The notes beneath the pieces are model-generated. The model was not told the origin of the DNA, did no database searches, and was given only the letters and a program-made list of their open reading frames with translations. A program made the position numbers and the translations under genes. From Gari tellinella (Eukaryota > Mollusca > Bivalvia > Cardiida > Psammobiidae), in NCBI GenBank assembly GCA_922989275.2, contig OV277874.1:19084154-19148153 (forward strand): a stretch of 64,000 bases of DNA, read 5' to 3'. Of this stretch, positions 5,470 through 59,996 are shown in pieces (position 1 is the first letter of the stretch; each line of letters opens with the position of its first letter).

Positions 5470-5758
5470 TTATCCAATGATTGACGAAGTTATATCATCC
5501 CTGCCTTTATAATAACAGTAGTATATCTTCGTACCAGTTCCACATCCGAGGTATTTCGGAGGATTACAAAATTTCAAGCCCGGATGTACGGCACCAATCG
5601 CTGCATCATCCGGTGTTTTGCCATCATCATTATCCCAAAGCAAATATTCCACCGATGACGTCATATCCTTCACTTCCTGGCAGCCATGTTTATGCTGTAA
5701 TAAGTAGAACGGAACATCCGTTGGCAGAACTATGGGGTTGTAGACACTTCCATCGGAT
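5470..5758 (-). CDS. Apextrin-like exon 9 (ApeC C-terminus and stop)
   Basis: This is the terminal exon, with acceptor TTTCTTTAACAG|A completing the Arg codon. It encodes S-D-G-S-V-Y-N-P-I-V-L-P, P-F-Y-L-L, G-C-Q-E-V, a second tryptophan-acidic motif (L-L-W-D-N-D-D), G-A-V-H-P-G and Y-Y-C-Y-Y, as in the second half of ApeC domains. The stop is TAA at 5472-5470. A family G MITE begins about 20 bp after the stop, so the 3' UTR is largely transposon-derived. Confidence 0.93.
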
Positions 5759-8700
5759 CTGTTAAAGAAATGTATTTAATCATCACTACATATGTTATAC
5801 CTCGGATGATAACAACAATTGGAGTACATGTGCGTTTATTGTGAAAGATCGCTTTGTCCTCGTTATCTGGGATTCGCGGTTTCATACAAAAGTGTGGCCA
5901 GGTTTTTTTTCATACCTCCATGAATACAATAAATGTTCCGAATTGTTCCTTATAATTTAATATCTCTACTGAATTTAAGAAGGAAGTTAATTAGAGAATC
6001 TGACACGATTGATCATTATTCCTTAATTAAACTACCTGGAAATCAAAGTACACTGGTTCATGTTTTGGTAACTAAAGATATCCACAAGGAAACATAATAA
6101 CCCACAAGAGTTACTAAGTGTTGACAGAGTTAAAGGACATTACCTGCAGCAGTATCGCAGTAACGTATCTGCTCCATACTCTCCACTGGGCAGTGTTCCT
6201 CCGTGACTGTTTGCATTGTTTATATTCTTACCTGCAGCAGTATCGTAGTAACGTATAGGTTCCATACTCTCCACTGGGCAGTGTTCCTCCGTGACTGTTT
6301 GTATTGTTTATATTCTTACCTGCATTAGTATCGCAGTAACGTATCTGCTCCATACTCTCCACTGGGCAGTGTTCCCCCGTGACTGTTTGTATTGTTTATA
6401 TTCTTACCTACAGCAGTACCACAGTAACGTATCTGCTCCATACTCTCCACTAGGCAGTGTTCCTCCGTGACTGTTTGCATTGTTTATATTCTTACCTGCA
6501 GCAGTATCGCAGTAACGTATCTGATCCATACTCTCCACTGGCCAGTGTTCCCCCGTGACTGTTTGCATTGTTTATATTCTTACCTGTAGCAGTATCGAAG
6601 TAATGTATCTGTTCCATACTTTCGCTGGGCAGTGTTCCTCCGTGACTGTTTGCATTGTTTATAATCTTACCTGCAGCAGTATCGTAGTTATGTATAGGTT
6701 CCATACTCTCCACTTGGCAGTGTTCCTCCGTGACTGTTTTCATTGTTTATATTCTTACCTGCAGTAGTATCGCAGTAACGATTCTGCTCCATACTCTCCA
6801 CTGGGCAATGTTCCTCCGTGACTGTTTGCATTGTTTATATTCTTACCTGCATCAGTACCACAGTAACGTATCGGTTCCATACTCTCCAATGGGCAGTGTT
6901 CCTCTGGACTGTTTGTATTGTTTGTATTCTCACCTGCATCAGTACCACAGTAACGTATCGGTTCCATACTCTCCACTGGGCAGTGTTCCTCTGGACTGTT
7001 TGCATTGTTTATATTCTTACCTGCAGTAGTATCGCAGTAACGATTCTGCTCCATACTCTCCACTGGGCAATGTTCCTCCGTGACTGTTTGCATTGTTTAT
7101 ATTCTTACCTGCATCAGTACCACAGTAACGTATCGGTTCCATACTCTCCACTGGGCAGTGTTCCTCTGGACTGTTTGCATTGTTTATATTCTTACCTGCA
7201 TTAGTATCGCAGTAGCGTATCTGCTCCATACTCTCCACTGGGCAGTGTTCCTCTGGACTGTTTGTATTGTTTGTATTCTTACCTGCAGCAGTATCGCAGT
7301 AACGTATCTGCTCCATACTCTCCACTGGGCAGTGTTCCTCTGGACTGTTTGTATTGTTTGTATTCTTACCTGCAGCAGTATCGCAGTAACGTATCGGTTC
7401 CATACTCTCCACTGGGCAGTGTTCCTCTGGACTGTTTGTATTGTTTGTATTCTTACCTGCAGCAGTATCGCAGTAACGTATCTGCTCCATACTCTCCACT
7501 GGGCAGTGTTCCTCTGGACTGTTTGTATTGTTTGTATTCTTACCTGCAGCAGTATTGCAGTAACGTATCGGTTCCATACCCTCCAATGGGCAGTGTTCCT
7601 CCGTGATTGTTTGTATTGTTTATATTCTTATTTGCAGCAGTTTCGCAGTAACGTATCTGCTTCATACTCTCCACTGGGCAGTGTATCTCCATGACTGTTT
7701 GTATTGTTTATATTCTTACCTGCAGCAGTATCGCAGTGACGTATCTGCTCCATACTCTCCACTGGGCAGTGTTCCTCCGTGACTGTTTGTATTGTTTATA
7801 TTCTTACCTGCAGCAGTACCCAGTAACGTATCGGTTCCATACTCTCCACTGGGCAGTGTTCCTCCGTGACTGTTTGCATTGTTTATATTCTTACCTGCAT
7901 TAGTATCGCAGTAACGTATCTGCTCCATACTCTCCACTGGGCAGTGTTCCTCCGTGACTGTTTGCATTGTTTATATTCTTACCTGCAGCAGTACCGCAGT
8001 AACGTATCTGCTCCATACTCTCCACTGGGCAGTGTTCCTCCGTGACTGTTTGTATTGTTAATATTCTTACCTATAGCAGTATCGCAGTAACGTATTTGTT
8101 CCATACTCTCCACTGGGCAGTGTTCCTCCATGACTGTTTATATTGTTTATAGTCTTACCTGCAGCAGTATCGCAGTAACGTATCGGTTCCATACTCTCCA
8201 CTGGGCAGTGGTTCTCCGTGACTGTATTGTTTATATTCTCACATGCAGCAGTATCGCAGTAACGTGTCGGTTCCATACACTTTACTGGGCAGTGTTCCTA
8301 CGTGACTGTTTGCATTGTTTATATTCTTACCTGCAGCAGTATCGCAGTAACGTGTCGGTTCCATACTCTTCACTGGGCAGTGTTCCTACGTGACTGTTTG
8401 TATTGTTTTTATTCTTACCTGCAGCAGTACCGCAGTAACGTATCTGTTCCATACTCTCCACTGGGCAGTGTTCCTCCGTGAATGTTTGTATTGTTTATAT
8501 TCTTACCTGCAGCAGTACCACAGTAACGTATCTGCTCCATACACTTTACTGGGCAGTGTTCCTCCGTGCCTGTTTGTATTGTTTATATTCTTACCTGCAG
8601 CAGTACCGCAGTAACGTATCTGCTCCAAACACTTTACTGGGCAGTGGTCCTCCGTGACTGTTTGTATTGTTTATATTCTTACCTACAGCAGTACAGCAGT

Positions 8701-11700
8701 AACGTATCTGCTCCATACTCTTCACTGGGCAGTGTTCCTCCGTGACTGTTTGCATTGTTTATATTCTTACCTGCAGCAGTATCACAGTAACGTGTCGGTT
8801 CCATACCCTTCACTGGGCAGTGTTCCTCTGGACTGTTTGTATTGTTTATATTCTTACCTGCAGCAGTACAGCAGTAACGTATCTGCTCCATACTCTCCAC
8901 TGGGCAGTGTTCCTCCGTGCCTGTTTGTATTGTTTATATTCTTACCTGCAGCAGTACCGCAGTAACGTATCTGCTCCATACACTTTACTGGGCAGTGTTC
9001 CTCCGTGACTGTTTGTATTGTTTATATTCTTACCTGCAGCAGTACCGCAGTAACGTATCTGCTCCATACACTTTACTGGGCAATGTTCCTCCGTGACTGT
9101 TTGTATTGTTTATATTCTTACCTACAGCAGTACAGCAGTAACGTATCTGCTCCATACTCTCCGCTGGGCAGTGTTCCTCCGTGACTGTTTGCATTGTTTA
9201 TATTCTTACCTGCAGCAATATCGCAGTAACGTATCGGTCCCGTACTCTTCACTGGGCAATGTTCCTCCTTGACTGTTTGTATTCTTACCTGCAGCAATAT
9301 CGCAGTAACGTATCTGCTCCATACTCTCCGCTGGGCAGTGTTCCTCCGTGGCTGTTTGTATTGTTTATATTCTTACCTGCAGCAGTATCGCAGTAACGTA
9401 TCTGCTCCATACTCTCCGCTTGGCAGTGTTCCTCCGTGACTGTTTGCATTGTTTTTATTCTTACCTGCAGCAGTATCGCAGTAACGTTTCTGCTCTATAC
9501 TCTTCGCTGGGCAGTGTTCCTCCGTGGCTATTTGTATTGTTTATATTCTTACCTGCAGCAGTATCGCAGTAACGTATCTGCTCCATACTCTCCGCTTGGC
9601 AGTGTTCCTCCGTGACTGTTTGTATTGTTTTTATTCTCATCATCCCACCGTACAAACCCTTCAACAAATCCTGAAATAAACAGTCGAAACTCGATAGTTC
9701 GAGCTTTTTAGTTCGAACAAACTCATAAACTGTGAGTCAAAACTCGACAGTTCGAGGTCGCGTAAGTTCGAACAGGCCCATATATATGCGAAAATAGATA
9801 GTCCTAACTCGCGTTAGTTTGAACAAACTCATATACAGAATAAACTCGATAGCTCGAACTCGCTTTAGCTCAAACAAACTCATATTCAGTCGAAACTCAA
9901 TAGTTCGAACTCGCTTTGGCTCAAACAAACTCATATACAGTAGAAATTCGATAGTTCAAACTCGCGTTAGATCGAACATACACATATACAGTCGAAACTC
10001 GAATGGTCGAACTCGCATTAGTTCGAACATATCCATATTTCAAAGTTAAAACGTTGCTTAGTCACGGTTTAACTTTGAAATACGGGTATGATCGACTTAA
10101 AGACATTACCCCAGTCCTAACATTGACCCCATTGTTCTCATTAGGCGTAAATGGAAATGGAAAGCATGAGAAAGGTGTGCTCAGCCGACGTCAGCAATCT
10201 CAAGTTTTCTATAGAGGCCCTGATGTACTCACACTCAAGGTGTTTTCCAATTGGTTTTACTTACCAAACTATCAAATTAAAGGTACGGACTTCACATTAG
10301 ACGCTTCAATGGTTTTCTTGCCTAGACATTTATACAGGTAAAAGATGCTGCCTGCTTTACCTTAAACTTTCTATGAGATTATATATCGGTAGGTGTTACT
10401 ACCAAATAAAGGTCAAGTAATGCCTTTAAGTGCGATAGACCTTAACGAAATTCAACTTATGAAATAATGGTACGATCCATTTAAACGAGATCGAAGTATT
10501 GAGTTTCGACTTTTTCTGTTAACCCGTTCATCCATGAACTTCAAATGAACAATATGTATTGTCCATTTTTTATCATAAAGGAGTGTTTTTACAACAAATT
10601 GCTAATTGACAAACTGTTTACATCCTTATCAGGGCATACACTGTTTGCATAGGACAATAGTGTTATTCACGGGTTCATTGCTTGTAATTGACGAGTATAC
10701 TCGTCACTAGGATTTAATGTGTAAATATAATGCATTATGTCTACGCCCTCGCTGTAGAGGCACGCTTTTGCAGGGCTGCCATTTCTCCGGATTTTACCTA
10801 AGTCTTCGGATTTTTATCCTAGCAGTTTACAGTTTATTTGTTGCTCTCAGTACATGTAAAATATGTAACATGAGGTACAAAAACACAATAAACAAAACAT
10901 AATTACCAGGCTGTGTGGGAATGAAATGAAGGCTATCTATTAACATTTAGCATGCTAATCAGACCTTATCGCAGGAACTACTAGCAACTTGTCAAACAGT
11001 TTTGAATCTGATGAGACACCGAGTTACTCGGCGTCTTTTCTGGGTCTAAACTATTTGCTAAGGTTACTACAAAGTCTTTCATAGCATGCCAAAGGTCAAA
11101 AGTGCGCATCAAAAACTAAAATATCACAAAACTACGAATGTAAAAAGACAATCAATATATTCGTATATTGCAATAAACTAAATTGTGTTTTCTACGCCAG
11201 GCGGGCACCGGCAGTGTTTAAGAATTATTGAAATAAATTTAGATATATTTATCAGCTTTGTTTCATCATTCTCTGACATAATTTTACCAAAGGTTCAAGT
11301 ATTCTTATTTCTGGAATTCAGACATGGAATATATTTCCTTCTTTCATTCTGAAAAAAGTACAATTGAAAAGATAATGAAATTCGTCACCAAGTTCATTTA
11401 AATTACACAAATTGCACTTTCGATTTTGACGTTCTACATTTATCCAACGACCTTGGATCTCAAGACAATGCTATAACAGATGTACTCGGGGTTAGTTATG
11501 ATAAATTCCTGAAAGCAGGACTAATACAAAAAGTCATGTAAGTAAATTGTGGTCTAGTTTCATTCACTAGTGTTATGTATGAAGCTATGCTCACATTTTG
11601 CAACCCCAGCGACGTGTATACTCGTCATTTAAATCAGTGCGCACAAAAAGAGTACACTTGTCTTAGGTAGACAGTGCAGACCCAGGTCAAAGGGCTCCTA

Positions 11701-14700
11701 AGAGAACCCCCAGATCAGGATCTACACCGTTAATACTGTACAAAAACCGCATAACTTATTATAAATTGACCATGTGGAATCTGCATTATCCAATCAAAAG
11801 TTTCACTGGTGAATGAGATAATCACGGTCTTCACTGTCGTCAATTCCGGAACATAATTGAAATTGTATATGGTCGACATGTAAAGATGCGGTTATTATCT
11901 CATTACACTATTTATTGCCATTAATATTTTGCATCTATATTTTTATTTCTAATTGATATGTACATATGTTGTTTGTTTGTATTATTGAACTCTTCAGTAT
12001 TGGAGGAAATAAAGAAACTAAACTAATATATCAAAATAGTTTTCCAGTTTATGTTCAGTTTTATATGTTCTATAATTTAAACATTTAGGTAACTCGTTAA
12101 CATCGCTATTCCAATTTTGAATAAATTGATTCTTTAAGGACTGTTCGATATTGTGAAGTAACATTTTTCTTGATCCATGATACTGTTGGTTTAACCATAT
12201 ATAACTTAAACCACACTCGTCTAAAATGGAATTTACATTATTCAACCAATGATATTGGTTGTCATTATTATTTAAATCGGAAAGTATAACTTTGTATAAG
12301 GAGGATGATAATTTATTGTCATTGTAAATTAAATTGTGCCAAAATCCGATTACTCTTTTTTAATGGCAACTGAGACAGGGTAACGGCCTAGATCACCGTA
12401 AAGCATAACATGAGGAGTCCCTTTTTTAACATGAAGAATATGTTTAAGAAAATCTGTATGTACTTTTTCTATTATTGCCAAATTACCGAAACACCAAACT
12501 TCGCACCCGTATGTTAATGTAGGTAAAATTGTGTTATCAAAAAGTATAAGCTGACAGTCAATTGGTAGATCTAGGTTTCGCAGTTTCCTATGTAAACTAA
12601 ACATCGACTTCCTTGCCTGTTCAACAACATGTTTTTTTGACACTGCAAATTGTCTATTTTTTTTAAAAGAGTACCCCTAGGTATTTGAAGCTATCGACAA
12701 CTTCGATTACATTATTATTTACTGTTATATTTCTATTTCTACCCTTTTTGTCTCCAAACACACGTATTTTCGTTTTATCAAAGTTAATATCCAGCTTCCA
12801 TGTAATAGAGTATTCATAAAAAGTATTCAAAAGTGATTACAACTCATCTTCTGTATTAGCAAAAATAACAGTATCATCAGCATAGAGTAAGACAACAAGT
12901 TTAAGATATATATCTAGGTTATTTTCTGAAATATCTATACCCCCGGTATTGTTATTGAACATAAATTGTACTAGATCATTTAAGAATAATGAAAACAGTA
13001 TAGGGGAAAGATTTTCACCCTGTCTTAATCCTCTGCTACATTGGAAGAAGCCTGACTTCTGACCATTTATGACAACACAAGACTTAATATCAAGATACAT
13101 GTTTCTAATTATGTTAAAAAGTTTACCATTGACATTATACTTCAGTAATTTTGACCATAAGTCTGCACGCCATACAGAGTCAAATTTTAAAGTTAAAAAA
13201 AGCGCAAAACAATTTCTTCTTTTTATGTTTACAATATTCACACAGCATATGGAGAATGAAGACATTATCAATTGTTGAATGACATTTTCGAAATCCTGCT
13301 TGATTTTGATTCAAAAGTTCATTTGTTTCTAAATATGATGTAAGTCTATTGTTTAAAATTGCCGTAAATAGTTTACCCATGCAGCTCAGTAAAGTTATTG
13401 GTCTATAATTTTCAGGCTGAGTGTTATCACCATTATTCTTATATATTGTACAATACTTCAACTAACCATGAATCTGGCAAATTTCCAGTATCGAATATTC
13501 TATTAAATAATTTGTGATAAAATGGCATTAATACATCAATCGAATGTTTTATGTATTCATTAGAAACCTGGTCCAAACCCGTTGCTTTACCTATTCTTAA
13601 ATTATCAATTGCTTTCTTGATTTCGTCAAAAGTAATTTCATTATTCAAATTGTTATCAACATCAACATTGGGCCAAAAAGGATCAACGGGGTCATCTTCA
13701 TCGACATTAGCAGTATTCAAATTCTTGCAAAACTCATAAAATGAGTCTATGTTAACATCGGGGTTCTTTGTTTTTGCATTAAGGCTATTAATGTAGTTCC
13801 AGTATTCGCGGGGTGACTCAGTTCTCATATTTTTTATTTTCTTTTTAAAGCTGCGTTTATATTTAACAACTGCATCTCGTATAGTTCGTTTATATTTTTT
13901 ACTAGCCTTCAACATATCATTTCTGTTAATATCATTTTTAACATGGTTATATTTTCGTCTACTTTTATGAAATTCGGATCTAGCGGTCAGTATTTCAGTA
14001 TTTCAGTATTGCTCATGAACAGACTCAATTAAACCGAGTCTGCAATTTTCAGTATTTGCTTTGATTTCTGTGCTTTCAAAGGATCTCCCCTTATTCAGAT
14101 TTACAACTATTGTCATACCACTTTTGGTTCTGGCTACTGCAGTTACCTGTCTTAACGTTACTTTTACTACTGCTACTGTATATTCCAAACGTATTTTAGC
14201 AGAAGTGGTTAGAACATTTTCAATATTTGTAACAATATCATTTATACAGCTTTTATCCATATCTTCACGTTCTAGCGTTTGCATGATGCATTCAAGTTTG
14301 GACATATCTATATTATGTATAAACTGTTGACTATAATTGTCAGACCATCTCTTGATTCGTTCACGACTGGACGTTTCATGTACATCAGGAGATTTACTAA
14401 CTGTTAGCTCAAAAGTACCTGGACAGTGTAAATCAGAAAGCAACGGACAGAAATCTATAGCATTGAACCCATTACGTAAGGGTATGGTATTTGCAGACAC
14501 TACAACATAATCGATAACAGATGTATTATTGCAAGTACATTTTCCAACATTTTGATCGCTAAAGGCTCTACCATTCATAATGACAAGATCATTGGTTTTA
14601 CAAAAGTCTACTAGATTTCTACCAAAACGGTTTATACTTTTATCTTCGGAGGACCTAGCATATAACATACCTTTTCGTTTCATTTCATTTACAACTTTAG

Positions 14701-17700
14701 CATCATATATTAAGTTACTGTCAATATCTATAGCATCATATATAGCGTCATCAATTTCAAATATATCTTGTAGTGTTGCTATTCTAGCGTTAAAATCACC
14801 CATTAGTATTACATATTTATAGGTGGTGCTAAAATCCTCTATTTCAGAGTAAAACATATCATAAAGATTCTGAGACTGATATTTAGAATTTTCCGGTGGA
14901 ACGTAGACAGAACCGAATACAATGTCTTCGTCAGTATCAAATAAAACCTTTGATAGTTTGAACCACTGTATATATTCACACTCGGTATCGATAACTGAGA
15001 AATATTTAGATAAACTAGATTTAATAAAAGTGGCTATACCTCTTAACTTTTTTTATTTTTTCTGTTTTCTGTTTTTCATAAAACATTCAAAATTTTCAAT
15101 ATTCACACAATCAAGATCATCAAGATGTGTTTCAGAACACGAAAAAAGGTCATAATTAGAAACAAAACTTCTAAATTCCGGGATATTCAGTTTAGAAGTA
15201 ATACCGCACACATTTAAGCAAGAGAATGACAAATTGTTTTTTAAAGTTTCAGTATTATTGCCACCATGGCAATCCTATAGCCCTGTACCCTGACGCTGGT
15301 TACTGTGTCTTCTCGCTTCTACTGGAATCTGAACGTCATCAGCTCTGACTTCCTGACCGTCGACAAACAGCCTATCTCTCACCAACACTGTCTTCTTCTT
15401 CCTGCTTCTGTAGTATCGCATAACCGGGTAAAGTTCTCTCCTCTTCTGTTCTATTTCCTCTGGAAATTGCTCGTTTATGCCGTAATTTGTTCCTCTCAAT
15501 AGGTGACCAGAACGACGGACTTCTTCTCTCTCCTTGAAAAATGTAAATTTAGCTACAATGGGGCGAGTGTTGTCAGACCTTCTTCGTCTATCAGCTCTAG
15601 CCGTGATGCGATGAACGCGCTCAAACCTTATGTCACATTTATCAAGTTTGGTTCTCAGAAACCTCTGGAGGACGGCTTCGGTATCTTCAAAGTAACGACC
15701 ATCGTGCTCTTGGAAATCTTCAGCAATGTTCGTAAACACTAAATTGTCTCGCACATTTCGGCATTTCACATCTACTAGGTCAGCTTTAACTTCGGCATTT
15801 ATATCACGTAACTCGCTTAAAGATTGACGCAGTTCATCGTTTTCACGCTTCATGTTTTCTATGGCATCCTCGTGGGTATCCAGTGTAACTTTATTGTCAC
15901 TCTGCTGCTTTTCTACAATGTAATATTGGTCACTTATATAGGGAACAGACTGTTGGAGTTCGCGCGTAGCTGATTCTGATTGGGTAAGTCTTTCTCCAAA
16001 ATCGTGCATTTTCACATTCTGTACTGCCCTAGCATGCGGCTGCTTTGCAGCTACGACAGCCAGTTAACCGTTACGTTGGGGTGAAGGGAAAATTTCTAAA
16101 AATTCATTTTCTGCTGATTATATTCTTTATTTTCCTTCAGCCAGTGATGACGTAGTGATGGTAAAAGACTGAAAAGATACATAAGGCATCATAAGTATTT
16201 GGTCTAATTAAATGATAAATGGCAGTTCCGGAGAGAATATAGAACCAGATCTACACTTAAAGTTCCAAGTTTCCAAATAAAGCAAGGTGCAAATAACTAG
16301 AGATTTCATACACGTCCTTTTAAGTGCACAAAAACGTAAAACATATGATCTTCAATGGTTTGTTCTTATTCTAACTGAATTCTGCCATATCAAGCTTAAA
16401 ATACATTTTGGTATGAAAATCACCGATCAGCATTTCAATCTCATATTCACAAGTTGACTAGAACTAATAAGATGACTAGAAACACTAAAACGCGAGGCAA
16501 ATTGGCCTGAACATACAAAATAATAGGCCGAGCGAGTCAAAGGTACGTAACCGAGGAGGTGCGAATTGAATACGGCCGAACGTAAGATCGACTAAAACAT
16601 GACCAATACAGAACCGAATCCGGTAATTTAGGTATAAACAGAACCAGCGTACATTATAAAATTGAGTTATAGAGCTGTCATTATAGAACTTACACCATGA
16701 GGGGGCAAATCTGCCTTTTGAAAGGGCTTGGCAACTGATCCGCGGCGACAAAATACCGGAATGCGCATGTGAGAAAATACATGTGCTTAAATTCTGCGAA
16801 TGATCGTAAATGACCGGAAAGGTTTACTTCTGTCAGAAAGGTCCTAAATAATAACACACATTCATTACCTTAAAAAAAGTCCTTAATGCTATTTTCAATT
16901 TCATCAAGTTTATCAAGCTTTCCAAACCCTTTTTCTAGCACTACCAACTTCGACATCAACGCATCATACTCAGTGGTTGACATAGAAACTTTATCTGAAT
17001 GCTTCAGTTCCGGGTGGACTCGGCCAGTGTCTAAGTCCAAGTAAGAGAGCTCTCCGTCAATAGAGGAGTCAGAGCTTAGTTCTGATCGAAGTCTTTTGGT
17101 TTTGGTAGGGCGTGGAGTTCCGGGGGTTCTAGGTGTCTACGTATTCGTAGCCATATTTACAACTTTCTTGGACACACTGTGGTCAGTCTTATATCAGTCT
17201 TATATGAACACTATCAAAGGGAGACAATCACAGTGTGTCACCACAGATAAAGTACATGTAATACATAATTGTGTTGTAAAGCTGTTAATAACTAATTGGT
17301 GTATCTTTCTTGGCTCAATTTTGCACACTGTCAGTTAGAAGACACTGTATGAACACATGCTTATAAACACAACTCGTAACCAATACGTGTGCATGTACAA
17401 GACACCGAGCTCACAGAACGTCCGCTATATATTATTCACTATTCACTATATAAAAGAGTAACACAATAAAATGAAACAACCCTTAGCCTGAAGTGACCAG
17501 TATCAAAGGAAGATAATCACAATATTCTACCGCTATAATAAATACATGTGCATATACATATATATATATTTTATGAACACATAAAATAATTTATGCCACC
17601 GTACACACCTCTTTAGGTTTATGGAAAAACAAAAAGGTATTGATTGGGAAATACGAGTGTCGTGGAGGACGACGGAGTAGTGGGACGCTAGTTGTAAAAT

Positions 17701-20700
17701 ATCACGTGACCTCACGGACCAATCAGACTCCTTCCTTGTCAGTTCGCCATTTATCGATAAGCGAGGAAGGAGACTGTTAAACTCTACAAAACAAACCACC
17801 ACCTCCCTTCCTCCTCCTCATTTTAGGTCAACTTATTAGTTTTAACATAAGCTTTATGTTTACTATGTAAGCTTTATATTTACTATGTTTTATGTTCCGG
17901 GCGGTTCTTCTTGCCCGGATAAAGGAAAGACTATGCATAATTTAATAGATAAAATGATTTATGGCATTTTTATGCCCTAATACAAACATAACATTGGTGT
18001 TATTATATATATACATGCCTTTCCTTTACAAGTGAGTCCATGCCCATCATGGCGATCATACATTATATGCGAACAGAGTGGCATAAATTGTGTATATCTA
18101 TTTTAAAGTAATTGATGTATCCTTTTTGGCTCAATTATGTGCACTGTTAGTCAGAAAGCATTGTATGAACTCAGGCTTATAAATCAATCGTAACTAATAT
18201 ATGTGCATGTACATGTGCTATTGCCGATAATTTGTAAATAATCTAAAATTCGGAAAGGATATCAAATTTGTTTGCGTACTACAAATGTATATAAATGTGC
18301 GACAACAGTGTACTTTACACTATAAGGGTAGTATAGGTATATTACATGATAAAGTGGTCAGTATGCGTGACCAGTCACCAGTGCTAGCAGATGGTAGCTT
18401 AAAACAGGCTGAAAGTAAAGCAGAACGCGCCTTAATGCGCATTCTGCTTTACGTTCAACCTGTTTTATGCAGTCATGTGTCTTCAAAACAAGAAACAGAC
18501 TATGAGGTAAAGGTACGATGAGAAAAATTCCGTCTGAAAAATTGAAAATTTGAAATCTTAGGATTTCTATGATCAACTTATAACAGCCCTGCTTTTGCAG
18601 CGACATGACTATATCAGGGAGTTTATTATTGAAGTATAGCAACGACCTTTGTGGTCAGAGATTCATTTGTTGACTTCGTCAAAAGCAACATATCAGTTTG
18701 CTCACGAACTTTCCTTTTATTAACAGCGAGTGCATTGGTTGTACTTTAAGATGTATAACCTATCTGTAGGTTAAGATGTATTTACGTACTGGTAGGGCAC
18801 CGGTTGTATTTAAAGATGTATTACGTACCTGTAGGGAATTGGTTGTACTTTTAGATGTTTTACGTACCTGTAGGTTAAGATGTATTACGTACCTGTAAAG
18901 CGTTGGTTGTACTTTAAGATGTATTACGTACCTGTAGGTTCAGATGTATTTACAAACCTGTAGGTTCAGATGTATTTACGTACCTGTAAAGCACTGGTTG
19001 TACTTTAAGATGTATACCGTACCTGTAGGTTCAGATGTATTTACGTACCTGTAAAGCACTGGTTGTACTTTAAGATGTATAACGTACCTGTAGGTTCAGA
19101 TGTATTTACGTACCTGTAAAGCACTGTTTGTACTTTAAGATGTATAACGTACCTGTAGGTAAAGATGTATTTACGTACATGTAGGGCATTGGTTGTACTT
19201 TAATATGTATTACGTACCTGTAGGTAAAAATGTATCTACGTACCTGTAGGGCATTGGTTGTATTTTAAGATGTATTACGTACTTGTAGGTAAAGATGTAT
19301 CTACGTACCTGTAGGGCATCGGATGTATTTTAAGATGTATTACGTACCTGTAGGTAAAGATGTATTTACGTACCTGTAGGTCATTGGTTGTATTTTAAGA
19401 TGTTTTACGTACCTGTAGGCCATTGATTGTATCTTAAGATGTATAACGTACCTGTAGGTTAAGATGTACTTACGTGCCTGTAGGGCATCGGTTGTATTTT
19501 AAGATGTTTTTACGTACCTGTATGTTAAGATGTATTTACGTACCTGTAGGTTAAGATGTATTTACATACCTGTAGGACATTGGTTGTATTTGAAGATGTA
19601 TTACGTACCTGTTGTTAATTGGTTGTATTTGAAGATGTATTTACATACCTGTAGGGCATTGGTTGTATTTAAGGACACAGTAGTCTCCACGTGGCCATTC
19701 CATCGACACACCAACATTGTGTACAGTTTTAACACAAAACCAACGGTTAAAATGGCTCTTCGTGAATTGACCTGAATATACATGTATATCGATTATCGAA
19801 GAGCTTGGTTTCAAACTATGCTCTATTGCAAATTAATTGCTTTTTCCATAGGCACACATACGAATATATAGACATACACTTATACAGTCGAAACTCGATA
19901 CTTCTATCTTGTTTAAATAGATCCTGCCATTATGTCATAAGTTGAATTTCGATACCTCGATCTCTCTTACGTCGACCATACCCGTATTTCGATGTTAAAC
20001 CGTGGCTTACAAACATACCCGTATTTCAAAGTTAAAACGTGGCTAAGCCACTTTATAAATTTGAAATATGCGTACAGTTGAATTTCGATATCTCGAACTC
20101 GGTTAGGTTGAACATACCCGTATTTCAAAGTTAAAACTAGGCTAAGCCACGTTTTACGTTTTAACTTTGAAATACTGGTATGTTCGACTTTACCGAGCAT
20201 GAAAAAATGCAATTCCTGTGTCGACAAATAGGATAGTTCGAATTAAGCGAGTTCGACTGTATATTCGAACTATCGAGTTTCGACCTAACGTCGAACACTC
20301 GAGGTACCTCTAGTCGGCATTACTCTAAAGTCTTCAGTTGAAAGTCGATAACTGATCTGGGTCTACATTGTTTGCACATGTTATGAGTATATTTTGAATA
20401 AGCCCATGGTGTTGCAAGAGTTAATCCTTTACCTTAAAGGCTGTTTCTGGTATTGAAGATAGGTGGCCACTTAAAACAGGTTGAAAGAAAAGCAGAATGC
20501 GTCTTAAGGTGCATTTTGCTTTACTTTCAGCCTGCTTTAAGCTACTATCTGCTAGAAAATAAGAAAATTGTCTGACAATACATATTCATGACTGTATAAA
20601 TTGATACTCTTTTCTTTAGTGGAGGGATAAATTAAATGTGCTAAAAGGCGCTTCTATTAGATAAAGGGTTAAAACAGATACGAAACTTGACAACTCGTAA

Positions 20701-26700: not shown

Positions 26701-29700
26701 TAAAAAAATACTTTGGATCGGATGGGTCTCGAACCTATGACCTTTGCATTGCTAGTCAACCACTATACTGACTGCGCTATGAAGGATTATACTAAATCGT
26801 ATCAACATTTCCTTTATTTAAATTTTCTAGTATAAGCACGTATGGAAAAAGATCAAGTCGTCAAGACGCATATCCGCTCGCCCGCAAGACCGACTTCCGT
26901 ATGCGAAAGGCCTTAAGTCATCATATGTCTTCAAAACTAGTAAGGTTAAGCAATAGACCAATAATTACCGTGCCCCACTTTTCTATAAACTTCAAGTAAG
27001 GTTGGTTGTCATTGGACACCGCAGAGACACTAGTATAGTTATCCCCGGTCTCCGGTAGTGCGCAAATGTCAGCTACGATTTCATTGGTCAGTTTATATCC
27101 ATTTCCCTGCGCCAGCGACAACTTGTAGCGAGCACTTCCGGTCACACAGGAAGTCTTCTTGTCGTATATAACATGGTGGTGTTGTTCTGTTTCCAATTCA
27201 ACGTCTCTGTAACCTGATACATAAGAAAGGACGTCAGGGCTGCCATAAGTTGATAATAAAAATTCTAAAATTTCAAATGTTTAAATTTTCAGACGAAATT
27301 TTACTAACTTTCAAGGCCAACTTTTACAGCCTAGCCAGGTACAACTCTATATTTTCCCCAAAGATACATTCATATACAACTGGAAAATGAAGAAAACAAC
27401 AAGGTTCATGTGTTACAGTGGAGAAAACGTTATTCTTTCCCAATAAACGCGTTTACGCTAAAACTATTATTTGCAGTGCAGTGCAAACAGTTTGGAGCCA
27501 GATCAGACGCCGGGTAACCCGGCGTCTGATCAGGCTCCAAACTGTTTGCCACCACGATAAACATGAATTATCAGAATTGTCCAAAAGTTGTACTTTTCTA
27601 CGTTTTAGTGCTTTGCGTTTGCGTACGTTTGCGTTTAAACGGGAAAGAATAACAGATTCTCCACTGTATGTAAGAACTTATCATGACTTTGACTTAGACC
27701 AATGACATGACTAGTCTTCTGCTACCGTTTGAAAGAGGCAGCAGCTAAAACAGGGACATGTTACTTCTGCCAACATAATTTCTACGTAAACCCCTTCTAG
27801 GATAACAGAAATGCCTTGTATCAATTCTCTAGCACATATGTTTTACATCAAAGGAACGAAACAGTGAATGTCTAATGACAAAATGCCAATTTGAGGCAAA
27901 ACATGCTGGCACTTTATCGCAGGGGAACTACTTTCGACTGGACCATGCAGCACTTCCGGTCTATTTAATGTTCCGTAACCTACTGGAACATGCAGCACTT
28001 CCGGACTATTTGATGTTCCGTAACCTACTGGACCATGCAACACTTCTGGTCTATTTGGTGTTCCGCAACCTACTGGACCATGCAGCACTTCCGGTCTATT
28101 TGGTGTTCCGCAACCTACTGGACCATGCAACACTTCCGGTCTATTTGGTGTTCCGCAACCTACTGGACCATGCAGCACTTCCGGTCTATTTGGTGTTCCG
28201 TAACCTACTGGACCATGCAGCACTTCCGGTATATTTGGTGTTCCGTAACCTACTGGACCATGCAACACTTCCGGTCTATTTGGTGTTCCGTAACCTACTG
28301 TACCATGCAGCACTTCCGGTCTATTTGGTGTTCCGTAGCCTACTGGACCATGCAACACTTCTGGTCTATTTGGTGTTCCGTAACCTACTGGACCATGCAA
28401 CACTTCCGGTCTATTTGGTGTTCCGTTACCTACTGGACCATGCAGCACTTCCGGTCTATTTGGTGTTCCGTAACCTAGAACCGTCAGGAGCTGAATACCT
28501 CTCCCTGTATTACACCGCCAATAGTACTGGTGATGTGTTTATCATATGCATTTAAAAGTCACAAAACAACAACTACATATAAAGACTAAGATACAGACTC
28601 ATGCATCTTATTGTACAGCTACACGCGGAAAGTTCGATATCACAGGAAGGCATATAATTAAAACAAATACGTACCCTTTAAGGTAGCGTGGGTGTTTAGA
28701 TACTTCAAGCTTATTTTTCTACTTTATCATCATGATTTATAATTTGTTCCCCCATTTTATAGCTGAGTGGTTAAAGTGGAACACATCCCACCATAATATG
28801 TCATTTTTTAAAAAATATATATTTTAATTTTTTACGATTTTATAAGACCAATTTAAAAAAAAATTCAAACAGCGATTTCAAACCCGTCTTAATTTGTAAC
28901 GCTTTTAAAATTGCCCAAAATCGCTATGTAAGGTTTTGACTAGTGTATATAATTCGTTGAAAACTCACCCGAACTAAGGGAGAATGCGGTTGCTTGCATA
29001 GCAGGGTACTGTTTTCCTTAAAGAAAAAGAAAAGAACCAATAGAGCTGAAGGTAGACCATAAATGCCAAATAATGCACGCCCGGTTCATTGCAAGTATAA
29101 CCAATGTTGTATTTAACTAATATGTAATCCTTTGATGCGATGATGTCATCACCCTTTAACCCTTTAACCCATAGCCTGTTTCTAGTATTTAAGATATGTG
29201 ACCTATGAAAGCAGGCTAAAAGTAAAGCAGAATGCGCCCTAGGGCGCATTCTGCTTTACTTTTAGCCTGCTTTTAGTTACTATCTGCTAGGATATAGAAA
29301 ATATTTCTTATGGTACATTTTTATGACAGTATAAAATGGAACTATTTTCTTTGGCGGATGAATAAAATGAATGCGCTAAAAGTCGCTTCTATAAGGGAAA
29401 GGGTTAAGCAAGTGTCGTCTGCTTTTGTTTCTCAGTTTTTAATTTTAGGTGAGTTGGCTGAAGTCATATCGTAATAATCACTAAATGAGTGTCAAACAGT
29501 TGGTATCCTGATCAGATGCCGCGTTACGCGGCGTCTGATCAGGTTCCAAACTGTTCGCAAATAACTTAAATTTGTACTCGAGTTAAGGCAGTGAAATTGT
29601 TAATATTAGTGTAAATAGACGTGCATACATATATAACTGATATACTGGTAGTCCTCCAATGCAAATCGTGAATTGTAAAGAATTTGCAAACAGCTTGGAT

Positions 29701-32700
29701 CCAGACCAGACGTCAGAAAAGTCGGCGTATGATCTTGATCCGAATGGTTTGACATACATACCCAAGACGCGACGGCTGCCCTTGATCATACTATTTGCAA
29801 TGCAATAAGACAGGTTTTGCCATATATAATAAATGTTTACAAACCATCAAAGGTGGTTCTCTGGAGTAGCTTGTCTTGGTACGATTTATCGTTGTAAACT
29901 ACCTCTATTATATATACATGCATGGGGGGTAGGCAAACATCTAGTTAAAATGTTTACAAACCATCAAAGGTGATTCTCTGGAGTAGCTTGTCTTGGTACG
30001 ATTTAGCGTTGTAAACCACCTCTATTCCATGGGAAGACTGGCACGTGTCGTGTTTCACATACGAAACTTCGGCTGCAAACTCGCTGTCTGTCTCTAGAAA
30101 ATGATGTATATACGCGTACATGTATATAAACATATTAAATAAACTAAAAATATAATATATTTTTATGATATAATTAACATGTAACCCTTTGCCAACCGAT
30201 TGCGTTTTAACCTATTCCCCTGAATCCCCCATATATGCGCCTTTTAGAGCATTTAATTAATTCTTCCACTAAAGAAAATACAGTAGTTTCAATTTATATA
30301 GTCATGAACATGTGCCAAAAAAATATTTTCTATATCCTAGCAGATGGCTTAACCCATTACCCCTTAAATACGCCTTTTAACTATTTTAATTTATTCCTCC
30401 ACTGAAGTAAATAGTTCCAATTTATACAGTCAGGAATATGTAGCAAAATAAATATTTTCTTTATTCTATCAGATGGTAGCTTAAAGCAGGCTGAAATTAA
30501 AGCAGAATGCGCCCTAATGCGCATTCTGCTTTACTTTCAACCTGCTTTAAGTAGTCACCTGTTTTCAAAACTCATACCCAACTTTCAGTCCATTTTGACT
30601 GGCTTAATCAAGTAGGTTGTCCCCCTTGCAAAATGCCGATAAAATCGATATGGATAAATTTCTGGCCTGACTGCCCTATATAGAATATATAGGGGAATAA
30701 TTTTCAAAGTCATATTTTAAGGTGTTGCCTATATTTGTCAATATTTTGTTGCGTTGCTTCAGTAACGCCGGCCACGGCCGTTATGGTTATTCCTTTCAGG
30801 GTACACATTATTCGTGTTAACAACCTCTAATATGGATTAAACTTACATGAATACCAATAAAATGTTCATTTAAATTACAGCAAATATATTATAAGAAATG
30901 AACTGAGGTTTTTTTGGGGTGATTAAGCTAAATAATCGACAGAAAATTACCAGCAAACTCCATGAATTGCTAACAACAACAGAAAATGCTCGGCAAATTC
31001 CATGAATCGTATTGGCGATTAATGGAATTTGCCGATCATTTCTGTCGTTTATTTCGCTTAAACGCCGACAAAAATCAGTTAATTTCTTAACTAACCACGT
31101 CAGCTAAACAACACACACCTTAGGGAAGCTGCTTCCAAAACGCCAGAAGAAGACGCCAGTCTTTTACAAACAGAACAAAAGAACAAAAAGGTTCCACGGA
31201 ACATGTAATTAATACAAGCTATAGTGAAGACACGTACGTTAACTTAAGTGATGTAGTTAGCAACAACAATCCTGTTTAAAATACAGTGCTCCATCTCTAA
31301 ACCAGCCATACGAAGCTCCTGTTCTTTGGTATCTAGACTTATACTCATTTGAAAGATTATTAGGATTATTGGAACAATGGTAACATCTTAGACGAGTCGT
31401 TTGTTAACCAGCTCTGTTATAGTAGTGTCATAAGGTTTGAGGTACCAGCACGGAGTGTTGCAGAGTGTGCCAGTTTGTGCACAATTACTGAGGACTGCAA
31501 TAGCGTGATTGCAGTACGGAACATAACCAATGCACGATTTGGTCTTACGATCTACAGTGCATGTCTAGGACATGCTTCTCCCCTTCAAGGTGCACAATTC
31601 TACGGACAAGAGTAACCAGGTGATACATGTACACCCAACAGGAGACACAAATTGTGGGCGTTGTTTGGAGGGAGTCGTTATCGGAGGGAACTTTGCAAAT
31701 AGATTGATTCCAGATCAGACGCCGCATAACGCGGCGTCTGATTTTCAATCAAGCTGTTTGTCACTCATCATTAAGTTTTTTATGTCAAAATGTCCATTAC
31801 GTAACTCTGAGAAAAACAGCAGATGACAATTTTAAGCAGACGACAATTTTAAGCAGACGACATTGCATCCAGACAATGGTGTGTGTCAGTCATGAACCGA
31901 AACGTAATTCGACAAGCTATATAGCGAACAATGATTCTAACCAACAAAGACTAAACATGTCCTTTATCTGCGTTATTTACCCACAAGTCAATACAATTGG
32001 AGTTTTTAAAAAATAAAAATAAAGGAAAAAGGAAAAAAAAGTTTTGATTCGAATGAGACTCGAACCTATGACCTTTTGATTGTTAGTCAACCACACTACC
32101 GACTGAGCTATCAGAACTTAAGTAGAATAGTGGTACATGTATGAGCTGGGTGCTGGGATCCTAACACCTTTTATTCATATGCTAATCTAGGGCCAGTAGC
32201 GATACGGAGTACAAAACGACTGATGTACGTTTTATAATTTTCATTAAAATTAATTCAGATAGCACAGCTAGTATAAGATTGAATGAAGAATTAATTATTA
32301 TGATATATTTCCACGTAACCATGTGAATCTAAAAGCTTTTTGTATTACTTTCAAAATTTATATTAACTTGCTGAATGTTAGAAATGTTTTATTTAAGATG
32401 TCATAAATTTCACTTCTGCCAATTTCATTGAAACGTGCAATACTTGCGTTCTTTGAATAGATTCCCGTAAAGGTAATCACTGACGCCTTTGGTGTCATTT
32501 GTATTTGTATGCACCGGTCTTGCACCGACGGGGTGAATTAGACTGTGCGTTTGCTGCTCTTTTACAAGAGCAGCAGTTTGCTGCTCTTTTACAAGAGCAG
32601 CAATCGAGTGCCTGGCTATGTCTGTAAGTCACTCGGCTTCTTTGAGTGCTTGGTTATACCTGTAAGTCACTCAGTTTTTTTCCTTTGCACCATTCCTTTA

Positions 32701-56480: not shown

Positions 56481-56554
56481 ATGACTCTTCCATTTCCTTT
56501 AAAATGACCAGATTTCATAGACTCTTGGGCAGTTTGACACCAGATAATAGTTTA

Positions 56555-57005: not shown

Positions 57006-57051
57006 AGTAAATGGACATAGAAACACACAGTGAACTGATGGAGAAGTGTTC

Positions 57052-57161: not shown

Positions 57162-59996
57162 CTGTAAAATAGAGAAATAGTTTAAGTACTTTAACCCATT
57201 ACCCCATAAATACACCTTTTTACGACCCTAACTTCTTCCTCCACTGAAGAAAATCGATCTAATTTATACACTATACAGTAATAAATCTATTTCATAATAA
57301 ATATTTTCTACGTTTTAGAAGCTTAAAGCAGGCTGCAAGTAAAACAGAATGCGCCTTCTGCTTTACTTTCAACCTGCTTTAAGTTGTCACCCATTTTCAA
57401 TTCTCGAAAATGGCAATGGGGTAACCCATTACCCAAAAGATATACTTATTTACACATTTAATGTATTCATACCCTATTAGCTTTTGATTGGTCAGATTTG
57501 AGCAGAATGCTCAAATCTGACCAATCAAAAGCTTGAGAAAGCTGACCAATCAAAAGCTTGAGAACATCTCAGACTCCTCTCAAACAATATGGAAGGACAT
57601 GTCTACAAGTAATAACAGGGCTCCAGATAAGAGGGAGTAAACTGAACGAATCCTACATTTTGTCACTCATCTAAGAACCAAATCATATGGTGTCATTTCT
57701 AATTAGAATCATCTATTTGAGACGATTCAAAGGAGTAGTGACACCATAGGGTTTAATGCAGAAATATGGATTTTTCTTTTTTTAAATACTCCCCTTATCT
57801 GGAGCCATGTAATAAAGTAACCAGTGAGAAAATAAATAGAGGATAATCAATTCCTTTGGATTAATATGAAAAATATATCACAAGAATGGGTTATTATCTG
57901 GTTGAAAAACTCGTCCGCAGGACGAGTTTTCTAACCAGATAACAACCCATTCTTGTGATATATTTTCATATCCATCCAAAAGGAATTGATTATTCTATTT
58001 ATTATATACATTTTAATGGAAGGTTTTTCAGAAAAAAAAACCACACACAAAACTAAATGTTTACAAGCGACGTCACAAAAGATATTGTGATGTGATGTCA
58101 CAAAAACGATATTGTCACTGCAAAACTGATATCATCACTAGTGATGATATCAACGGTGACGCTATGAAATTTATCTGAGAAATCTCTATAAATCATTGAT
58201 AGGTATATATTAAAGGGAGGTAACTCAGCACTTGTAAACCTTGAGCAAATAAAGGGAGGATACTCAAATCTGACCAATCAAAAGCTTGAGAACAATCTCA
58301 GACTCATCTCAAACACTCTATAAGTATTGACCCTGGAACTATAAGTCTAGAAGTAATTAACCCTTAGCCTGCCACTCACGACTATAGCTCCATATGCAAA
58401 CAGCTTGGATTCGGATGAGACGCCGAGTAACTCGGCGTCTCATCCGGCTCCAAACTGTTTGACACTCGGACAACATTTTCAGCAATTTTGAGCAACTTTG
58501 AAGCACTTTGAAACTTGAAGCAGACGAGAAATATAGCAGACGACAATTTATTTGGCGGGCTAAGGGTTAAGTAACTAATGAGAAAATAAAGGGAGGTAAC
58601 TCACCACTTGGAGAGTCGCTGGACTTGAGTGCAAACGACCAGCTGTCAGGATTGACTGAGGCACAATGAGGAAGACGGAGTTCTACTGGCTGGTTAAACT
58701 TTAATCCATGTGGTCCACACATGACCAACGGTGAGAGCAAGGTCTCGCCTGAAAAACAATGTAGAATAGTTATAGGGAATACAGAGAGCAAGGTCTCGCC
58801 TGAAAAACAATGTAGAATAGTTATAGGGAGTTCAGAGAGCAAGGTCTCGCCTGAAAAACAATGTAGAATAGTTATAGGGAGTACAGAGAGCAAGGTCTCG
58901 CCTGAAAAACAATGTAGAATAGTTATAGGGAGTACAGAGAGCAAGGTCTCGCCTGAAAAACAATGTAGAATAGTTATAGGGAGTACAGAGAGCAAGGTCT
59001 CGCCTGAAAAACAATGTAGAATAGTTATAGGGAGTGCAGAGAGCTAGGTCTCGCCTGAAAACAATTTACATATAGAACTGTTATAGGGAGTGCAAAAAGC
59101 TGTCACTTTTCTGTATATAAATACAGGACTGTTTTATTTTAATAGACATAAGTGCAAAGCCTAAAATTTATGCATTTCATACAGTTTGCAAATGAAAGCA
59201 AAGTCATGCTCTGCACTCTTAGGGTATTTATTTCCCTCCCTATAACAACTCCCTCTGAGCAACACACACAATCCTTGTCTACCAATGGGTGTTGCTGTAG
59301 AGAAGGAGCAAGCTCTGTAATATGTCTGGATTGTTAAGTCAATTACTCCATAAATATGCTTTTTTATGCCTCTTATTATTTCTACACTACGGTAGTAGTC
59401 CCAACCGAGAAAGTCCTGAACAGAAAACATTTTTTGGGTGTTTAAAATAAATTCACTGAGTGATACCTTTTTCCCTATCTCATGGAGGAAGTATGGAGTT
59501 ATCTCTGCATACTTTAAAATAGATCTCTTGTTCCAAGTTGTCATTGAGAGCCCCTCTGGGTATAACAATACGGACACCCAGAGCTCCAGATAAGGGGAGT
59601 ATTTCAAAAACTAAAATCTTTATTTCTGCTTTAAACCCTATGGTGTCACAACTCATTAGAATCGTCTCGAAGAGACAATTCTAATGAGTAGTAACACCAT
59701 AGGATTTGGTACTGAAAAGAGTGAGAAAATGTTGTATTTGTTCAGTTTACTCCCCCTTATCTTGAACCCTGCATTGAGTGTTACCTTTTTCTCTATCTAG
59801 TGGAGGAAGTATGGAGTTATCTCGGCACACTTTAAAATATATCTCTTGTTCCAAGTTATCATTGAGTGCCCCTCTGGGTATAACAATACTGACGCCTGTC
59901 TCGGGAGACTCCAGTACCCCACCATTACTGGTAAACACACCCCTCGCTGTCGCCACTACCGTATGATTGTCGTCTACATCCAAGGTCGGGTCAAAT
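57052..59996 (-). CDS. TJP1: ZO-1 / tight junction protein 1 gene, last three coding exons (ZU5 domain)
   Basis: The exons are 59996-59785, 58748-58605 and 57161-57052 (TGA), all GT..AG with phases 1/1, 1/1 and end. The product is the C-terminal 150-odd residues of a ZO-family MAGUK scaffold, which links junctional membrane proteins to actin. It spans a ZU5 domain with T-V-V-A-T-A-R-G-V-F, the E-Q-E-I-Y-F-K-V-C-R-D-N-S-I-L-P-P-L-D block, P-L-V-M-C-G-P-H-G, and the diagnostic end S-V-L-V-D-H-F. UNC5 and ankyrin also have ZU5 domains, but the extreme C-terminus and block order match ZO-1 (polychaetoid in insects). The PDZ, SH3 and GK exons must lie upstream, beyond 64000. Confidence 0.93.
57191..57425. 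mobile_element. Family A MITE in TJP1 last intron
   Basis: Lies 30 bp upstream of the last TJP1 acceptor in transcript sense; core partly deleted. Confidence 0.82.
57478..57590. repeat. 'aagcttttgattggtcagatttgag' inverted/tandem repeat
   Basis: An inverted copy pair and a tandem third copy of gaccaatcaaaagcttgag; related to 4806-4944. Confidence 0.75.
57615..57812. mobile_element. Family F MITE in TJP1 last intron
   Basis: Complete; bordered by cagggctcc / ggagccatg. Confidence 0.86.
57840..58005. mobile_element. Palindromic MITE
   Basis: aataatcaattccttttgga type arms, centre aaaactcgtccgcaggacga + gtttt; long inverted repeat around 57920. Confidence 0.85.
58262..58340. repeat. Half copy of the same element
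   Basis: tactcaaatctgaccaatcaaaagcttgag..aacactctataagta only. Confidence 0.7.
58358..58570. mobile_element. Family B MITE downstream of TJP1 ZU5 exon
   Basis: Ends ttaacccttagcctgcc / ggcgggctaagggttaa; core gcttggattcggatgagacgc with complement. It lies 35 bp inside the intron after the donor at 58605. Confidence 0.88.
58605..58748 (-). CDS. TJP1: TJP1 penultimate coding exon (ZU5 C-terminal half)
   Basis: This is a 144-nt exon with acceptor TTTTTCAG|GC and donor CAAGTG|GTGAGT. It encodes E-T-L-L-S-P-L-V-M-C-G-P-H-G and E-L-R-L-P-H-C. The choice of 58748 as exon start gives the family's normal ZU5 spacing. Six further acceptor-like repeats lie immediately upstream. Confidence 0.92.
58733..59090 (-). 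repeat. TJP1: TJP1 splice-acceptor minisatellite (51 bp x about 7)
   Basis: Each unit is 35 nt of intron end (TATAACTATTC..TTGTTTTTCAG) plus the first 16 exon bases GCGAGACCTTGCTCTC. Acceptors end at 58749 (true), 58800, 58851, 58902, 58953, 59004 and 59055. Unit length is a multiple of three and units two to six have no stop, so each upstream acceptor would add 17 residues. The seventh reads GAG-ACC-TAG, a stop. Confidence 0.95.
59210..59335. repeat. Dispersed repeat, copy 2
   Basis: Homologous to 525-690; in TJP1 intron. Confidence 0.75.
59455..59573 (-). pseudogene. TJP1: Decayed partial copy of TJP1 ZU5 exon
   Basis: This copy matches the 3' part of the exon at 59785-59890 including the donor. 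It reads I-V-I-P-R-G-A-L-N-D-N-L-E-Q-E-I-Y-F-K-V-C, then hits TGA in place of the leucine codon after P-P. It lies in the following intron, separated from the parent exon by a family F MITE. Confidence 0.88.
59578..59772. mobile_element. Family F MITE between TJP1 exon and its duplicate
   Basis: Sits precisely between the decayed exon copy and the true exon's 3' flank. Confidence 0.86.
59785..59996 (-). CDS. TJP1: TJP1 third-last coding exon (ZU5 N-terminal half)
   Basis: This is a 212-nt exon with acceptor TATTTACAG|A and donor GAAAAAG|GTAACA. It opens F-D-P-T-L-D-V-D-D-N-H and ends P-P-L-D-R-E-K-G. Both of its ends have been duplicated nearby: the acceptor twice more upstream (60057, 60130) and its 3' part once downstream (59455-59573). 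Confidence 0.93.

Follow-up and report, generated by a model that had tools for sequence, protein, structure and literature searches.

Minisatellite-like arrays that span exon-intron boundaries were previously described in amphioxus under the name 'mirages', in Adh3, the globins BflGb6 and BflGb9, troponin C and PGBD5 (PMC3087553, PMC3902484). Their units are 10-160 bp long and are found at donors and acceptors, AG/GT signals are present in many but not all copies, and regular splicing was reported to be undisturbed; these studies, which were on amphioxus, considered that mirages might give rise to new introns (PMC3087553, PMC3902484). Three other systems are related. In the Rogers model, introns are gained through tandem duplication of AGGT segments (PMC3443670, PMC4974935). 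In UBC, dual-specific splice sites of tandem-repeat genes define introns with both ends in the array and a length that is a multiple of the unit (PMC10809524). Finally, internal tandem repeats at the exon-intron boundaries of human segmental-duplication genes have been investigated for their capacity to create novel introns and variable proteins (PMC2812944).

We analyzed a 64,000-nucleotide stretch of a bivalve-like genome (the window), for which a preliminary description had proposed that minisatellites nucleate on splice junctions. It had offered slippage or repair at transcribed junctions, or neutral retention, as possible causes, and had stated that it knew of no described mechanism by this name. 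Our results showed that the structures are real and of a kind that the amphioxus studies had already named (PMC3087553, PMC3902484); here, they occur in a bivalve-like genome, and no report of mirages in molluscs was found in the literature among titles or the opening parts of abstracts. We conclude that they are probably junction-spanning tandem duplications of the amphioxus mirage kind, explained by a high background of duplication together with neutral retention.

All features below are given in window coordinates and lie on the minus strand. In the apextrin (MACPF-ApeC) gene, repeat calls and the continuity of the exon in homologues placed an array of 40 copies of an 88-bp unit (6140..9637) across the donor of the exon at 9553..9670, which founded the array via that donor; the unit consists of the final 85 nt of this exon plus the start of the donor (CAG/GTAAG). 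Homology implies that the first copy (9552) provides the donor, and the remaining copies would then be intronic. GTRAG was present at the donor position in 37 of the 39 copies scanned, as counted from the copy table, and many copies still translate; a strict peptide pattern across the units (1/38) was dropped as unreliable, because the units had been cut inside the pattern. An apextrin paralogue has an exon 8 with 95% identity over 40 residues and the same exon-8 boundary but lacks the array, which is therefore unnecessary for a gene of this kind. A second array, based on 26/39-bp units (18732..19670), spans the donor of another apextrin exon (19649..19771), again its founder via the donor, and each unit joins roughly 22 nt from the end of that exon to GTACGTAATACATCTT. 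Furthermore, the exon at 30093-29962 has its 3' end, together with its donor (29961), in two copies (29831..30026); the 79-bp copy is 96% identical, and the copies lie 117 bp apart.

The true apextrin exon 2, as determined by comparison with the paralogue and homologues, is a 48-nt exon (28969..29016) with an ordinary GTGAGT donor and no repeats. The array of 12 copies of a 45-bp unit (27937..28477), at which the preliminary description had set the exon-2 donor, is intronic, and an exon 2 at this position was dismissed because the real one lies at 29016-28969; this array was excluded from the count of junction arrays. Some early homology queries for apextrin carried ten residues of the false exon 2. 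The spliced apextrin frame was unbroken when the outermost donors were used.

In TJP1, an array of 6.5 copies of a 51-bp unit (58733..59065) carries the acceptor TTTTTCAG/GCGAGACC of a ZU5 exon (GETLLSPLVMCGPHG...; 58605..58748) that was identified by homology. The unit corresponds to 17 codons, all copies after the first are open in frame, and a TTTCAG acceptor was present in all seven copies found. Here, it is the last copy (58748) that homology implies as the acceptor, and the ZU5 domain built with it aligned to ZO-1 of PDB 2kxs with no insertion at the junction. The TJP1 exon that encodes the first half of ZU5 (59785..59996) has duplications at both of its junctions: its acceptor is present in three tandem copies (59973..60169) with spacings of 61 and 73 bp, and a 125-bp partial copy of its 3' end and donor (59454..59578), located 318 bp downstream, contains an in-frame stop. 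Altogether, five of the six duplicated junctions that had been claimed for the two genes, namely the exon 7 and exon 8 donors of apextrin and three junctions of TJP1, were confirmed, while exon 2 was not; its place as sixth junction is taken by the donor at 29961, which had been absent from the original list but does carry a duplication. The related statement that the three largest exonic arrays all span a splice site held in part, since only two of the three apextrin arrays to which it presumably referred are exonic. Tandem arrays are easily mis-assembled and the claimed exon 2 was indeed wrong, but an assembly or annotation artefact is extremely improbable, as the copies within the window arrays diverge by about 3 to 26% and the exons are fixed by homology.

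The retention of splice motifs in these arrays raises the question of function, i.e., that they are kept as spare splice sites or for regulated isoforms, with the 51-bp TJP1 array offering in-frame 17-residue steps in ZU5. The GTRAG and TTTCAG counts and the open frame of the TJP1 copies would fit such a role. In five arrays, windows were ranked by how well they are conserved across copies; the splice motif was near the top in two (1/42 and 4/28), a result that favors function and counts against a neutral account, intermediate in one, and near the bottom in two (60/67 and 90/104), which argues against function. Nor are the 88-bp unit and the 76-bp unit of a TJP1 PDZ exon divisible by three, the 88-bp array is absent from the paralogue, and an insertion in ZU5 would break a run that is conserved with ZO-1 of PDB 2kxs. 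We consider retention for function very unlikely.

The frequency of duplicated junctions was assessed in a sample of 155 homology-defined junctions from 323 kb of the same genome, 23 in the window and 132 outside it, which were picked by homology and not blind to arrays, roughly two dozen edges without a convincing AG/GT having been omitted beforehand. Local duplications crossed 15 of the 155 junctions (6 in the window and 9 outside), several of them as a single extra copy and not as an array; those outside included further junctions of TJP1 as well as ones in an ApeC cluster and in a paralogue of apextrin. Donors (6/73) and acceptors (9/82) were duplicated at similar rates (P 0.60). An extra myosin acceptor array (L051), which was fetched since the match list hinted at a partial copy, was left out of these counts. 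A myosin exon pair (L052) was rejected as an array, the two being full exons that are 78% alike with both frames open.

A directional permutation null served as the main test. Within the window, duplications affected 6 of 23 junctions versus 1.0-1.4 expected at reaches of 500-3000 bp, and 5 versus 0.7 at 300 bp (P 0.0003-0.0025); the excess reaches significance, but post hoc, as the pattern had been chosen there after it was seen. The outside sample had 9 duplicated junctions among 132 versus 5.6 expected at a reach of 1.5 kb (P 0.11), or 6.9 under a GC-matched null (P 0.26). Thus, the expectation that the pattern exceeds chance was borne out where it had been picked, but the excess elsewhere was not robust, and nucleation, i.e., the attraction of duplications by splice sites, is not established and was not supported by the sample outside the window. 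At shorter reach, the outside counts were 8 versus 2.7 at 300 bp (P 0.005) and 9 versus 3.6 at 500 bp (P 0.01), an excess that was carried by TJP1. This gene had 9 of its 43 junctions affected, whereas the remaining 112 junctions included 6 (post hoc P 0.006), and outside junctions without TJP1 gave 3/94 versus 1.6-3.7 expected. For the pooled 155 junctions, 15 versus 7.0 were observed (P 0.004; GC-matched 8.3, P 0.02), an approximately twofold excess that includes the post hoc window. Outside pairs with at least 90% identity numbered 4 versus 1.8 (P 0.11), or 3 versus 0.76 within 500 bp (P 0.04).

Two other designs were tried and dropped. A coverage comparison, in which 0.033 of junction points outside the window were covered versus 0.12-0.19 of intron points more than 80 bp away, was not kept as the main test because intronic arrays contribute all of their copies to it, whereas a junction array contributes just one. 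Nulls based on founder units depended on how duplications were merged (P 3e-5 to 0.003 in the window and 0.03 to 0.41 outside).

The above results bear on the hypothesis that junctions are mutational hot spots, at which slippage or repair linked to transcription (R-loops, U1 on the nascent RNA) generates duplications in some genes, e.g., TJP1. It would account for the window and pooled excesses, the short-range excess outside, the share of TJP1 and the additional myosin acceptor array. However, the outside excess was non-significant at the 1.5-kb reach and after GC matching, the count without TJP1 was 3/94 versus 1.6-3.7 expected, and the distance of breakpoints to the splice site is not fixed. 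A genome-wide test of a donor motif (CAGGTAAG) against its reversal likewise revealed no clear donor excess, as tandem triples numbered 169 versus 130 in raw counts, and the single motif was itself commoner than the reversed one (12 versus 7 in the sample with two arrays masked). We therefore regard hot spots as distinctly unlikely. A bolder version, by which splice junctions of certain genes, TJP1 foremost, are two- to fourfold hot spots for the birth of duplications in this bivalve lineage, linked to the nascent transcript, with roughly 10% of junctions carrying a mirage and introns growing as they swallow copies of their own borders, is also rather unlikely, if marginally less so.

A different reading of the mild excess is bias of persistence and detection: selection on the exon preserves one copy of each pair, so that junction pairs would stay recognizable for longer, and the DNA next to exons has a higher G+C content, at which duplications are commoner. 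Mismatches were fewer on the exon side (44/625, 7.0%) than on the intron side (88/857, 10.3%), with 2 of the 15 rows lacking an exon-side count. Across the G+C bins, the directional duplication rate was 3.5% in the first, climbed to 5.8% by the fifth and was 4.6% in the sixth, and GC matching shifted the outside null from 5.6 to 6.9. The pairs with at least 90% identity nevertheless tended to remain above the null, and we consider this bias a serious candidate that nonetheless has less than an even chance of being the explanation.

High background duplication with neutral retention remains our preferred explanation for the structures themselves. Local duplications, with a mean footprint of 85-103 bp depending on the group, covered 45,791 of 300,126 noncoding points (15.3%) versus 325 of 17,145 deep exon points (1.9%). 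Surplus copies were located solely on the intron side in 15/15 junctions, a result that is partly built in, the exon edge being defined by homology; the exon part of the units was 16-112 nt long, and its register relative to the splice site varied. We propose that many short local duplications arise throughout the noncoding DNA of this genome, and that those within exons would be eliminated because they alter the protein. A duplication that straddles a junction would leave its outermost copy (first donor or last acceptor) intact; homology implies that this copy is the one used, so that the surplus copies should be intronic, and homologues match the protein predicted from these outermost sites. 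If the spliceosome still uses the outermost site, the mRNA would be the same and the surplus copies would be transcribed and then discarded as intron, so that selection should tolerate such duplications roughly as well as those lying wholly within introns. Retained copies may then expand, diverge and homogenize as neutral minisatellites do, presumably by slippage or unequal exchange. Neutral retention, which the preliminary description had offered as one possible cause, is favored by the intron-side position of the surplus copies and the depletion of duplications from exon interiors. Counting against it are the concentration in TJP1, which would not be expected of a neutral process acting uniformly, the pooled, roughly twofold excess, the short-reach outside excess and the pairs of at least 90% identity within 500 bp.

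Since mirages occur in multiple unrelated genes of this bivalve-like genome (15/155 sampled junctions plus one myosin exon), they may arise generally as a by-product wherever the load of tandem duplication is high. Their presence also offers a simple rule for the growth of introns from copies of exon ends, in which the outermost copy is used and the surplus passes to the intron. Gene annotators should be aware that intronic repeats and exon-like fragments may pass for exons or for alternative splice sites; this happened with the 45-bp array.

With respect to known systems, the clam resembles the Rogers model in that tandem duplication introduces repeated AG/GT signals, the surplus of which may be removed by splicing without a change to the protein, but an existing intron was enlarged, no new intron was seen, and, for the exon-8 junction only, the paralogue has an identical boundary without the array. 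Its units carry AGGT as in UBC, a type in which splicing can buffer repeat expansion; however, each of the window's three junction arrays holds a single intron end, the other being outside the array. As in human segmental-duplication genes, minisatellites overlap exon borders and alter intron structure, whereas the clam protein is predicted to be unchanged. For introners, in which scattered copies of a single element would be expected at numerous junctions, the comparison covered the array units, and those compared were mutually dissimilar in sequence, except for the exon-7 arrays of the two paralogues. The closest match is the amphioxus mirages, with which the clam arrays share units of exon plus intron sequence that include the boundary, at both donors and acceptors; they differ in their bivalve-like genome, in reaching up to 40 copies and in affecting several junctions of one gene.

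The window comes from the nuclear genome of a bivalve-like animal (contig C19:19084154-19148153 of a 1.6 Gb, 80-contig assembly), and with one TJP1 exon as query the best identity among 120 matches listed of 1,835 was 87%, to Mactra antiquata. Both of its genes lie on the minus strand. The first, a MACPF-ApeC (apextrin-like) gene at 41292 to 5470, has ten exons that join into one open frame, which tracks homologues of Haliotis, Magallana, Mytilus and Mya. The other gene is TJP1 (ZO-1), represented by its 3' end with the ZU5 domain. The window also contains a weak DDE_3 transposase match (2336-3040, plus strand; E 2.9e-5, under the family cut-off), two reverse-transcriptase-like retroelement regions judged from ORF translations (34021-37416, plus strand; 12018-15052, minus strand), and a palindromic element, AAAGCAGGCTGAAAGTAAAGCAGAATGCGCC with its complement, that is repeated in the window and in stretch L032 of the same genome and has, by eye, a MITE-like look.

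Two of the apextrin arrays reported in the preliminary description are present at exon donors, namely 88 bp x 40 at 6140-9637 (exon 8) and 26/39-bp units at 18732-19670 (exon 7); in both, the first copy is the homology-implied exon end and the remainder extends into the intron. The reported TJP1 duplications were likewise recovered: acceptor 59996 has three copies at spacings of 61 and 73 bp, a 125-bp copy of donor 59784 lies 318 bp downstream, and acceptor 58748 lies within a 51-bp array (58733-59065, minus strand). Spliced at the last acceptor of this array, the TJP1 ZU5 domain matches ZO-1 in PDB entry 2kxs (E 1.4e-48) with no insertion at the junction. The frame of the array is open from the second copy onward (58567-59043, minus strand), so use of one of these upstream acceptors would add multiples of 17 residues to ZU5. 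Comparison with homologues and with a paralogous apextrin gene ~60 kb away ruled out the array assigned to the exon-2 donor: this 45-bp array (27937-28477) is intronic, and homology places a 48-nt exon at 29016-28969 (minus strand; acceptor TTTAAG and donor GTGAGT, from the window-paralogue comparison), the residues of which agree with homologues at the same place. Donor 29961, a junction absent from that description, is duplicated 117 bp away at 96% identity.

The wider sample comprised 323 kb of unique sequence including the window, 259 kb of it outside, in stretches picked because they showed ApeC homology or adjoined the two genes. Exons were placed by tblastn, yielding 155 junctions (window 23, rest of TJP1 38, the C19 paralogue 17, an ApeC cluster on contig C13 36, scattered ApeC exons 41), and a junction was counted as crossed when a same-strand copy within 1.5 kb spanned it with 8 bp or more to either side. 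By this definition 15 of the 155 were crossed: 6 in the window, 6 in upstream TJP1, 1 in the paralogue, 2 on C13 and 0 among the scattered exons. The upstream TJP1 set occupies C19:19148154-19198700 (stretches L037-L041 and L053). The longest arrays outside the window were a 76-bp acceptor array at a TJP1 PDZ exon (9 copies with the adjoining 700 bp included), one with a 114-bp unit at the acceptor of a C13 exon and one of 40 bp x 38 at the donor of paralogue exon 7. The unit of the last is similar to that of the window exon-7 array, and the two arrays are therefore probably not independent. A third unrelated gene provided a 97-bp array, with five or more copies that are 98.6% identical, over the acceptor of a myosin-head exon (C19:30536150-30536800), found among 80 exon matches listed and left out of the junction counts. 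Two adjacent full myosin exons at C1:84197950-84198380 are 78% identical, both open, and look like mutually exclusive exons. Pairs of ApeC loci with identical or nearly identical exon matches (C16:65872 and 513511, C17:52119243 and 52397065, C3:41838852 and 41965310) are perhaps recent segmental duplications.

Local duplications covered 15.3% of noncoding points in the genome sample versus 1.9% of points >30 bp inside exons. Our most trusted test used, as its null, the frequency with which random noncoding points near each junction lay in a copy with partners solely on the "intron side". At a reach of 1.5 kb between copies, the window gave 6 observed against 1.4 expected (P 0.001), the outside sequence 9 against 5.6 (P 0.11) and the pooled sample 15 against 7.0 (P 0.004). 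Across six settings the outside count was 8 or 9 against 2.7 to 7.1 (P 0.005 to 0.27), the two smallest P values coming from the 300- and 500-bp reaches. A GC-matched null gave 9 versus 6.9 outside (P 0.26) and 15 versus 8.3 pooled (P 0.02); recent pairs (at least 90% identity) outside numbered 4 versus 1.8 (P 0.11), or 3 versus 0.76 within 500 bp (P 0.04). With TJP1 removed, the outside count was 3 of 94 against 1.6-3.7 (P 0.21-0.73), and in a post hoc comparison 9 of 43 TJP1 junctions were duplicated versus 6 of 112 elsewhere (Fisher P 0.006). Thus, a modest junction excess, concentrated in TJP1, is possible, and these counts do not show the nucleation of minisatellites on junctions in general that had been proposed.

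A duplication that includes a junction would leave one complete exon edge in place, and as long as splicing kept to the first donor or the last acceptor, the protein would be unaltered and the surplus copies would become intron. Such use of the outermost site would explain why surplus copies were intron-side in 15 of 15 cases, the exon edge itself being defined by homology; why exon interiors are poor in duplications; why donors (6 of 73) and acceptors (9 of 82) were duplicated alike (P 0.60); and why the exon portions of units vary from 16 to 112 nt without register. From homology, we infer that the spliceosome would choose the outermost copy. Paralogue exon 8, without an array, shows the state preceding expansion or following loss. 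How well the copies conserve the splice motif differed between arrays and gave no clear verdict (ranks 4/28, 8/30, 1/42, 60/67 and 90/104 in five arrays; the 88-bp array, in which the motif spans the unit boundary, was outside the ranking).

Tandem triples of the donor motif CAGGTAAG, with 20-50 bp between copies, were counted across the entire assembly on either strand, and 169 were found versus 130 for the reversed, uncomplemented control, with matches that overlap inside arrays and are non-independent. In the sample, the single motif outnumbered its reversal 44 to 7, or 12 to 7 (~1.7x) with the two window donor arrays masked. Because the single motif is already this much commoner, the 1.3-fold ratio of donor-motif triples across the assembly does not point to a surplus of donors within arrays.

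Altogether, this bivalve-like genome carries a real, well-formed set of the junction-spanning minisatellites called "mirages". A high background level of tandem duplications together with neutral retention explains them best. The kind is already known; a question that can be tested is whether TJP1 and genes like it truly are hot spots. Mirages were described and named in amphioxus, where a paper on globin genes reports them at both 5' and 3' boundaries (PMC3087553). Units measure 10-160 bp in the genes compared there, regular splicing is apparently undisturbed, and the paper puts mirages forward as a source of new introns. Intron gain by tandem duplication is presented as an accepted route (PMC3443670, PMC4974935), expansion of repeats carrying AGGT is described as open to buffering by splicing (PMC10809524), and minisatellites are also known from exon borders in humans (PMC2812944). 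Judged on the tested features, copies that span an exon-intron boundary and occurrence at both donors and acceptors, the clam arrays are of the same kind as those of amphioxus and belong with mirages.
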